Source: Candidatus Protoclostridium gallicola (GTDB taxonomy: Bacteria > Bacillota > Clostridia > Christensenellales > Pumilibacteraceae). Taken from it: DNA of 64,000 nucleotides. The notes beneath the pieces were generated by a model. That model made no database searches. It saw only the letters and a list, made by a program, of their open reading frames with translations, and had not been told where the DNA came from. Made by a program: the position numbers and the translations under genes. Location of the stretch: contig CAJFLE010000001.1 in assembly GCA_904387375.1 (NCBI GenBank), positions 1-64,000 on the forward strand, given 5' to 3'. Below are positions 25,154 through 27,233 of this stretch, in pieces (the first letter of the stretch is position 1; every line of letters starts with the position of its first letter).

Positions 25154-26254
25154 TTATATTACCTTGATTTGTTGATAGCCGTCTTGTATGTGCGTGTGTT
25201 TGTTTACCCAACGCAATACGCGCAGATTACGGAACAATGCGTATATTCCGAGCGTAATCAATGTTAATAAAGTCCACAATATCCATTTCCCGAGTATTTG
25301 TACGCCGTTTCCGTCAAACTTCATTTTTCGTCCGTCGATTACCATGCGCTTTTGTATAAAACGGTTTTTCCAACATATCGCCAACGGCTTCAACAGCCAC
25401 AGGGTGACGAGCGTGAACAGGAAACAGCCGAGTTTTACGAGTAAAAGCGCAATTGCGTTTCCTTTCCACGTTCCGCCAAGGAACGGCAGTTCGCCCGCAA
25501 TGTGCAAATGCGACGCTTTCCATTGCAATAATTTTTTTGGAATGAATAACGCGAATATCAGAACCGTGGGGATACAGAGCAGAAGCCAGCAAACCCACTT
25601 TCCGAGCAATTGCGATACTTTGCCGTCGAACGAAAGACGTTTCCCGTCGTAAAGCGAATGTTTGTATTGCCAACGTAAAACCCATATATACGCAGCCGGG
25701 AAGCAAATACCCGCCGTGCAAACAGTTACCAAGGCGCCGAGCAATATCCAGCCGAGTTTTTGCAAGAGCCAACCGTCGAAACCGCCTTCGCCGCCGTTTT
25801 CTGCTTGCTCTTTCGGCGGGTTTTGTTCGTGTTCGCTTTTAAGCCGCTCGCATTCGTCAAAATAGTGATCGGTCGTCTGTATTATCCACTCGCGGTCTTT
25901 TAATCCGCGCCTCTTTTTGAATTCCGCTTTTAACGCCTTTTCATCCTGACCAAGATATTTTGCTATATTGCAGGTGCGACTTGCAACATTTTTATATCGT
26001 AAGCGAAAGGTTATTTTATTCAGCGTACAATATAGCAATACGGATAAAGTGATTGCAAACGGAACTATCATAATTATTCCGATACTTTTTGCTTGCCCCA
26101 TCGGGTCAAATGAACTGATACCGATTCCAAAAAACACAAATAAAAGAAATCCGAAAGCGATTGCGCTTATAACGGTTAAAATTGTTCTGACCTTTTGTTT
26201 TATGCGGAAAATCTTATCCAATGACTTTTCAAACTTTTCTCCGTATTTGCTCAT
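25154..26254 (-). CDS. Multi-pass membrane protein with YjgN/DUF898-like repeats
   Basis: Repeated G(K/R)xLxFDGxxxQLLGKWxxWxLL units and long TM segments; RBS aaggag before MSKYGEK; AT-rich relative to flanks. Confidence 0.65.
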   Translation of the reverse strand: MSKYGEKFEKSLDKIFRIKQKVRTILTVISAIAFGFLLFVFFGIGISSFDPMGQAKSIGIIMIVPFAITLSVLLYCTLNKITFRLRYKNVASRTCNIAKYLGQDEKALKAEFKKRRGLKDREWIIQTTDHYFDECERLKSEHEQNPPKEQAENGGEGGFDGWLLQKLGWILLGALVTVCTAGICFPAAYIWVLRWQYKHSLYDGKRLSFDGKVSQLLGKWVCWLLLCIPTVLIFALFIPKKLLQWKASHLHIAGELPFLGGTWKGNAIALLLVKLGCFLFTLVTLWLLKPLAICWKNRFIQKRMVIDGRKMKFDGNGVQILGKWILWTLLTLITLGIYALFRNLRVLRWVNKHTHIQDGYQQIKVI

Positions 26255-26270
26255 ATTAACTCCTTGCGGC

Positions 26271-26298
26271 TTGCAGTTTAAGTGTACTTTTACTGCTT
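26271..26298 (-). promoter_or_regulatory. Crossover-like site 1 (imperfect 28-bp palindrome, central GT on + strand)
   Basis: TTGCAGTTTAAGT-GT-ACTTTTACTGCTT; reverse complement matches site 2 with few mismatches. Confidence 0.55.
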
Positions 26299-26302
26299 TC
26301 TT

Positions 26303-26331
26303 TTGCTTGCTTCGGTTTCTGCTTTTATGAT
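26303..26331 (+). promoter_or_regulatory. Putative promoter between the two crossover-like sites
   Basis: TTGCTT-17-TATGAT, currently reading toward the recombinase. Confidence 0.55.
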
Positions 26332-26385
26332 ACAATAAAGCAAGTAAATGCGCCGAATTTGTACCGGATACATAATTTTCCGGCG

Positions 26386-26413
26386 TTGCAGTAAAAGTAC
26401 ACTTTTACTGCAA
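26386..26413 (+). promoter_or_regulatory. Crossover-like site 2 (perfect 13-2-13 palindrome, central AC), followed by a T-tract
   Basis: TTGCAGTAAAAGT-AC-ACTTTTACTGCAA. Confidence 0.6.
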
Positions 26414-26493
26414 TTTTTTTGTTTTTGCTCGTTTAAGGTAGTCTTTTTGCCGTTTATCCGCTATGCTTATGAAAAAACAAAGGAGCAAACCAA

Positions 26494-27105
26494 ATGGAAT
26501 ACGCATACGCGCGGGTATCGGCAAAAGACCAGAATTTGCAGCGGCAGATTGCCGCGCTTAGTGAGTTCGGTATAGAAAAAAGCCGCATTTTCTCCGAGAA
26601 GAAAAGCGGCAAAGACTTTGAACGTAAGGAATATAAACGCTTATTAAAAAAACTCACAAGCGGCGATCTGCTCGTCATAAAGTCCATTGACCGGTTAGGG
26701 CGCAATTACAGTCAGATTATCGAGGAATGGAACAGAATAACGAATATAATCGGCGCAGACATACTCGTGTTGGATATGCCGCTTTTAGACACCCGCACGA
26801 AGGCGGATACTTTGGTCGGCAAGTTCATTTCGGATATTGTGCTGCAAGTATTATCCTTTGTGGCGGAGAATGAGAGGGAAGGCATAAAGGCGCGGCAAGC
26901 CGAGGGGATAAAGATTGCGCATCAAAAGGGCGTTCGTTTCGGCCGCCCTTCGTTCGTCTATTCTGAAGAATTTTTATCCGTCGCTGACGACTATCTTTGC
27001 AAACGTATCAAATTGAAAACCGCGTTGCAGATATTGAATATAAATCAAAGCAATTTTTTCTATCATATCTACAAGATAAAGAAAAACAAGAGCGTTTTAC
27101 AATAG
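26494..27105 (+). CDS. Serine recombinase (resolvase/invertase family)
   Basis: YARVSAKDQNLQRQI catalytic Ser motif, SIDRLGRNYSQI, C-terminal HTH; RBS aaaggag. Confidence 0.93.
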   Translation: MEYAYARVSAKDQNLQRQIAALSEFGIEKSRIFSEKKSGKDFERKEYKRLLKKLTSGDLLVIKSIDRLGRNYSQIIEEWNRITNIIGADILVLDMPLLDTRTKADTLVGKFISDIVLQVLSFVAENEREGIKARQAEGIKIAHQKGVRFGRPSFVYSEEFLSVADDYLCKRIKLKTALQILNINQSNFFYHIYKIKKNKSVLQ

Positions 27106-27117
27106 CCGCATTATAAA

Positions 27118-27150: not shown

Positions 27151-27233
27151 TGGTGCGGTTGACAGGAGTTGAACCTGCACGATTTCTCACTAGAACCTGA
27201 ATCTAGCGCGTCTGCCAATTCCGCCACAACCGC
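27151..27233 (-). tRNA. tRNA-Leu (anticodon CAG), CCA encoded
   Basis: GCGGTTG...CTAGATTCAGGTTCTAG...GGTTCAACTCCTGTCAACCGCACCA cloverleaf on the minus strand. Confidence 0.95.

Follow-up and report, generated by a model that had tools for sequence, protein, structure and literature searches.

Our analysis identified, in a window of 64,000 nucleotides (the whole stretch of DNA analysed), a module that is explained best as a horizontally moving phase-variation system with an invertible promoter, and we consider this explanation as a whole highly probable. The anatomy of the module, its conservation and the occurrence of both promoter orientations in relatives, including two pairs at the same locus, are shown by the data.

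Two palindromic recombination sites, whose centres lie 115 bp apart, flank a promoter between a gene for a DUF898 membrane protein and a small serine recombinase gene (Table 1). Inverted crossover sites around a promoter are one criterion for an inverton, and it is met at this locus. The original prediction, made from sequence alone, had proposed two 28-bp near-palindromes at this distance with GT and AC centres in inverted orientation, and direct reading of the sequence confirmed them at their proposed positions. Palindromes on their own are nothing unusual: the window has 24 with arms matching at 9/11 positions or more, versus 14.5 expected. By contrast, none of 60 simulated 64-kb windows contained a pair matching at 20/24 positions or more and separated by 200 bp or less. 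A search allowing up to three mismatches revealed this site pair as the sole one in the 1.8-Mb genome, that is, no second cassette is present by this search.

Table 1. Features of the module and its target gene in the window.
Feature	Position	Strand	Remarks
Target gene, 366-aa DUF898 (PF05987) membrane protein	25157..26254	-	L008 has this gene in the same place, with the promoter directed at it
Target RBS/leader CTCCTTGCGGC	26260..26270	-	Part of module; kept beside site 1 in L007, L010, L011 and L017 whatever the target
Recombination site 1	26271..26298	.	28-mer around core 26273-26296, GCAGTTTAAGT-GT-ACTTTTACTGC; arms match 9/11; degenerate outer half, TTTAAGT; central 2-bp overlap GT (26284-26285)
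Invertible segment between the crossover points, 113 bp	26286..26398	.	Matches L007, L008, L010 and L034 on the opposite strand only; flanks match on the same strand
Invertible promoter TTGCTT-18-TACAAT	26307..26336	+	TTGCTT 26307-26312, TACAAT 26331-26336; faces recombinase now (inferred OFF for DUF898); matches promoters of flipped relatives
Recombination site 2, perfect palindrome	26386..26413	.	28-mer around core 26388-26411, GCAGTAAAAGT-AC-ACTTTTACTGC; arms match 11/11; central 2-bp overlap AC (26399-26400)
Hairpin of site 2 with T7, a probable terminator insulating recombinase in OFF orientation	26385..26420	+	T7 run at 26414-26420, right after site 2; -15.9 kcal/mol, z -4.6; T-run mostly kept in subclade
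Small serine recombinase, 203 aa	26494..27105	+	Catalytic resolvase domain, long E helix, C-terminal three-helix DNA-binding domain

Comparison with relatives revealed that the DNA between the sites occurs in either orientation. Between the palindromes, the window and its relative L007 share 69 of 93 positions when one segment is flipped and 47 of 107 when it is not, and alignment of the spacers yields z=19.5 flipped as compared to 0.8 as is. BLASTN analysis gave the same picture: the flanks match L007 on the plus strand with 90-97% identity, the region 26271-26413 on the minus strand with 79%. The spacers of relatives split into two orientation classes, and pairs with a common target gene fall on opposite sides. 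That is, the window and L008, which share the DUF898 gene, align with z=8.1 flipped versus 1.1 as is, and L010 and L017, both preceding a Big_2 lipoprotein gene, with 8.0 versus -0.8.

Both orientations at one locus, a further inverton criterion, were found at two loci within a single assembly, G253. Its contigs C22 and C24 have a unique 32-bp target-side flank in common, and their 96-bp spacers are 100% identical once flipped; contigs C3 and C26 represent a second locus with another unique common flank and opposite spacer orientations. The exact 96-bp spacer is present in four G253 cassettes and reversed in a fifth. Contig ends overlap by 55 bp for C22/C24, C3/C26 and C25/C9, which would fit de Bruijn contigs broken at a branch. 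Counted by eye, most G253 cassettes point away from their target (about 12 OFF, 3 ON). In another genome, G394, the orientation of cassette C6 is opposite to that of C16, C23, C32 and C80. Contig breaks in G394 were dropped as evidence for mixed orientation, as they are confounded by near-identical repeated spacers; the claim of inversion at the same locus rests on the unique-flank pairs of G253. In a tree of 17 recombinases, the subclade of the window was too poorly resolved for counting flips. For the window's own locus there is a single assembly, and only the orientation facing the recombinase was seen. Taken together, the flipped alignments, the opposite spacers within genomes and the same-locus pairs make inversion between the two sites very likely, albeit without experimental demonstration.

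The adjacent recombinase carries a PF00239 domain, in which Ser9, Arg7, Arg67 and Arg70 are invariant among 23 aligned relatives, thereby meeting the inverton criterion of intact catalytic residues. Among proteins of solved structure, it scores best with Sin (112 bits) and gamma-delta (74 bits), whereas Gin reaches 50 bits. An AlphaFold model displays a catalytic domain, an E helix and a three-helix C-terminal domain, and Foldseek ranks gamma-delta, Sin and Tn3 resolvases first. Local confidence of the model is fair and confidence in domain arrangement poor (pTM 0.45), and it served fold assignment only. With the NCBIfam Mpi model NF009949, the protein reaches 42.1 bits and misses the 272-bit cut-off. 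Closest homology to Hin/Gin was likewise not met, and the original label 'Hin/Gin-type' failed in this respect. By these tests the enzyme falls outside the Hin/Gin and Mpi families, yet it would act like an invertase, an activity that is inferred. As to the arrangement typical of Sin/Tn3-type resolvases, we saw just two full palindromes, in inverted orientation, and no accessory site.

Alignment to flipped relatives favours the promoter register listed in Table 1, whose position coincides with near-consensus promoters of these relatives, e.g. TTGCCC-18-TATAAT in L007. The register predicted originally, TTGCTT-17-TATGAT (26303-26308 and 26326-26331), also exists and was corrected accordingly; neither was rated a strong sigma-70 site in the window by a consensus scanner. 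The orientation proposed for the promoter held, that is, it faces the recombinase and a flip would aim it at DUF898. Support was also obtained for the idea that site 2 and T7 act as attenuator: they form the best terminator-like element of the region, although the role as terminator is inferred. The leftward transcript of site 1 folds only weakly (-7.2, z -1.4). Most subclade members retain the T-run behind site 2, and none has one leftward of site 1. Because a probable terminator with T-run at site 2 contrasts with a weak fold lacking a T-run at site 1, we infer, without expression data, that the rightward promoter is OFF and the leftward promoter ON for the target, and that site 2 insulates the recombinase. 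L014 and L024 have a weaker T-run and, as judged by eye, a separate GC hairpin with T-run between site 2 and recombinase. In the window, the promoter is directed rightward at the recombinase, and beyond the window's subclade the same holds for each of the ten examined cassettes that adjoin a recombinase (L014, L019, L021, L024, L038, L046, L062, L066, L068, L186).

Two regularities went beyond the original prediction. The central dinucleotides vary (GT/AC, AG/CT, CT/AG, AT/AT) yet are reverse-complementary in 28 of 28 cassette groups. Of the two recombinases in G253, the first adjoins a GT/AC cassette and the second a CT/AG cassette, and the differing dinucleotides would keep the two systems apart. 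Moreover, centre-to-centre spacings form a ladder of 95/105/115/126/136 bp that fits whole helical turns: 94-95 bp in G354 and G225; 104-105 bp in G033, G009, G207, G320, G043, G433 and L024; 114-117 bp in the window subclade, G394, G253, G402 and L021; 126 bp in one degenerate G209 cassette; and 135-137 bp in G209, G331 and L026. With one value per genome, the resultant is 0.93 at 10.5 bp and the best period 10.55, although kinship makes this figure overstate independence. For the five distinct classes, including the lone 126-bp cassette, P is about 1e-5 relative to random spacings of 90-140 bp. Single cassettes are about one turn off the rest of their own genome in G354 (95 to 105) and G209 (136 to 126). 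We read this spacing as a putative need for both sites to lie on the same face of the helix and to synapse across a short loop. The distance of 115 bp, originally the main caution, thus appears as part of a conserved ladder, though the loop remains short.

Recombinase relatives are numerous in Clostridia; cassette-adjacent recombinases are 55-95% identical, and the layout is kept. Within the window's subclade the recombinases are 86-97% identical in protein sequence although their genomes belong to different families. DNA homology between the window and L007 (90%) is limited to 26260-27108, which covers target leader, site 1, promoter, site 2 and recombinase. Since homology stops at these borders while the subclade spans families, the module moves without its target gene. 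As part of the best explanation, it is very likely self-contained, ~850 bp in size, and transferred horizontally between families. DUF898, the target named in the original prediction, holds for the window and L008 only; elsewhere the targets are BspA-type LRR proteins, Big_2 lipoproteins or large secreted proteins, so that a surface protein gene is almost always located on the target side. Genomes of genus g87 contain 11-41 sites each, as compared to no match with a reversed control pattern. Orphan cassettes without resolvase are numerous and placed before surface genes. Scans of IMG/VR with the recombinase and the two-site pattern returned one distant relative and no cassette; therefore, the module is not notably viral.

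Several alternatives have to be weighed. The palindromes could serve as operators or terminators only, with the recombinase or another factor autoregulating divergent promoters without inversion. Perfect palindromes overlap the promoter region, and site 2 with T7 scores as terminator. However, this scenario, which the original prediction had named as its refutation, leaves unexplained why spacers are homologous only when flipped, with the breaks located at the sites, and why overlap dinucleotides are complementary, and it is contradicted by the opposite orientations in C22/C24 and C3/C26. We therefore regard it as very unlikely. Equally remote is the possibility that the pair represents the res site (site I plus accessory) of a Sin/Tn3-like resolvase for dimer or cointegrate resolution, with inversions as by-products. 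Res sites sit just upstream of the resolvase gene, and the closest solved relatives are indeed Sin and gamma-delta. Yet both palindromes are full crossover-type sites in inverted orientation with matched overlap dinucleotides, and many orphan cassettes precede surface genes without any resolvase; moreover, promoters occur in either orientation.

Inversion could also result from RecA-type recombination, as the sites are inverted repeats. However, 24-28 bp is short for homologous recombination, and recombinase linkage, dinucleotide covariation and helical spacing indicate a site-specific synapse, which all but rules out this option. A less remote but still unlikely variant is bistable feedback, in which the rightward orientation drives the recombinase so that OFF cells make more enzyme and flip back. 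The uniform rightward orientation in the window and the ten other cassettes favours it, but the site-2 terminator intervenes in the window, an extra hairpin does so in L014 and L024, and orphan cassettes without downstream recombinase are built alike.

The phase-variation module with invertible promoter thus remains the preferred explanation. In its putative mechanism, the recombinase would bind each palindrome as a dimer, and the sites, 11 helical turns apart, would meet via a short DNA loop. Cleavage would leave a 2-bp overlap (GT/AC), and religation would invert the 113-bp segment. Transcription from a leftward promoter would then pass the weak hairpin of site 1 and reach the gene for the cell-envelope target, here DUF898 (ON); from a rightward promoter, it would terminate at the perfect hairpin and T7 of site 2 (OFF), the state of this assembly. 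That this recombinase carries out the flip, how the flip affects transcription, that site 2 acts as terminator and that the segment flips in this species are all inferred, as there are no experiments. Against the explanation stand the single orientation available for the species, without reads, a promoter weak by consensus, a loop short for a serine recombinase, the lack of biochemical evidence connecting this enzyme with the sites, and G394, which has about 20 cassettes yet no recognisable recombinase in its assembly. A bolder reading is a short-loop inversion machine without Hin-type enhancer, in which spacing fixed to whole turns (95, 105, 115, 126, 136 bp) rather than overlap sequence would limit the reaction to inversion, and which, recombinase included, moves between families and plugs in before unrelated surface genes. 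Taken jointly, we lean slightly against these propositions. If true, they would explain the self-complementary AT overlaps, unable to encode direction, in several genomes.

We place the system among serine-recombinase phase-variation switches, as a variant for which we found no previous description in the open-access literature searched; subscription papers were mostly outside the search, and an earlier description is not excluded. The Bacteroides fragilis master invertases Mpi, Tsr0667 and Tsr19 flip short promoter segments before surface genes and serve local and distant loci (PMC4747536); Mpi is named serine-type (PMC5903667). The module shares short promoter inversion ahead of surface genes, but has near-perfect 24-28-bp palindromes at helical-turn spacings, resides in Clostridia and targets single lipoprotein or secreted genes. 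With Hin/Gin it has in common a serine recombinase, inverted palindromic sites and a 2-bp overlap, the latter being well known for these enzymes. However, Hin depends on an enhancer that is bound by Fis and located about 100 bp away from one of its sites (PMC3798978), for which a segment of 113 bp in all leaves little room, and the protein is farther from Gin than from Sin. Sin and gamma-delta/Tn3, the closest solved relatives in sequence and fold, resolve direct repeats using accessory sites, in contrast to the two-site inversion arrangement found here. The Clostridioides difficile RecV switches (flg, cwpV) likewise provide clostridial surface phase variation by small inversions, but RecV is a tyrosine recombinase (PMC5903667) whereas the present enzyme is serine-type. 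Largely uncultured gut Clostridia thereby gain a phase-variation system with candidate enzyme, site code and target class, and phase variation explains breaks at some surface-protein loci in these assemblies. Helical ladder and matched overlaps allow a direct test of whether a serine recombinase can invert DNA without an enhancer, and owing to its ~850-bp size and intact transfer the module could serve as a compact genetic switch.

Some additional observations concern related loci. In genomes of family f6 (G354, G301, G253, G386, G394, G402, G433, G209), the number of recombination sites is 11-41. Large secreted proteins follow most of the cassettes examined in G253 and G394, which amounts to a repertoire of phase-variable surface proteins whose switches are mostly OFF; the G394 assembly is 94% complete, and many of its contigs end within repeated spacers. 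The window's genome also encodes a 64%-identical recombinase paralogue on contig 8 (L004; G000:C8:134933-135526), which has a single upstream palindrome, no convincing second site that we could find and a divergent gene reading like a response regulator, as well as a truncated copy comprising residues 71-200 with 87% identity (L005; G000:C1:266851-267240). At L018/L039 (G039, same genus), the promoter faces a lipoprotein gene, site 2 is cut mid-way and about 46 codons are missing from the start of the recombinase gene; this is likely a locked-ON derivative. Finally, a tRNA gene lies on the opposite strand with its 3' end close to the end of the recombinase gene (Leu, 27151-27233 in the window). 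A tRNA neighbour (Ala, Leu or Val) is also present in L006, L007, L012, L016, L022 and L030, and tRNA ends are possible points of entry for the module or the region around it.
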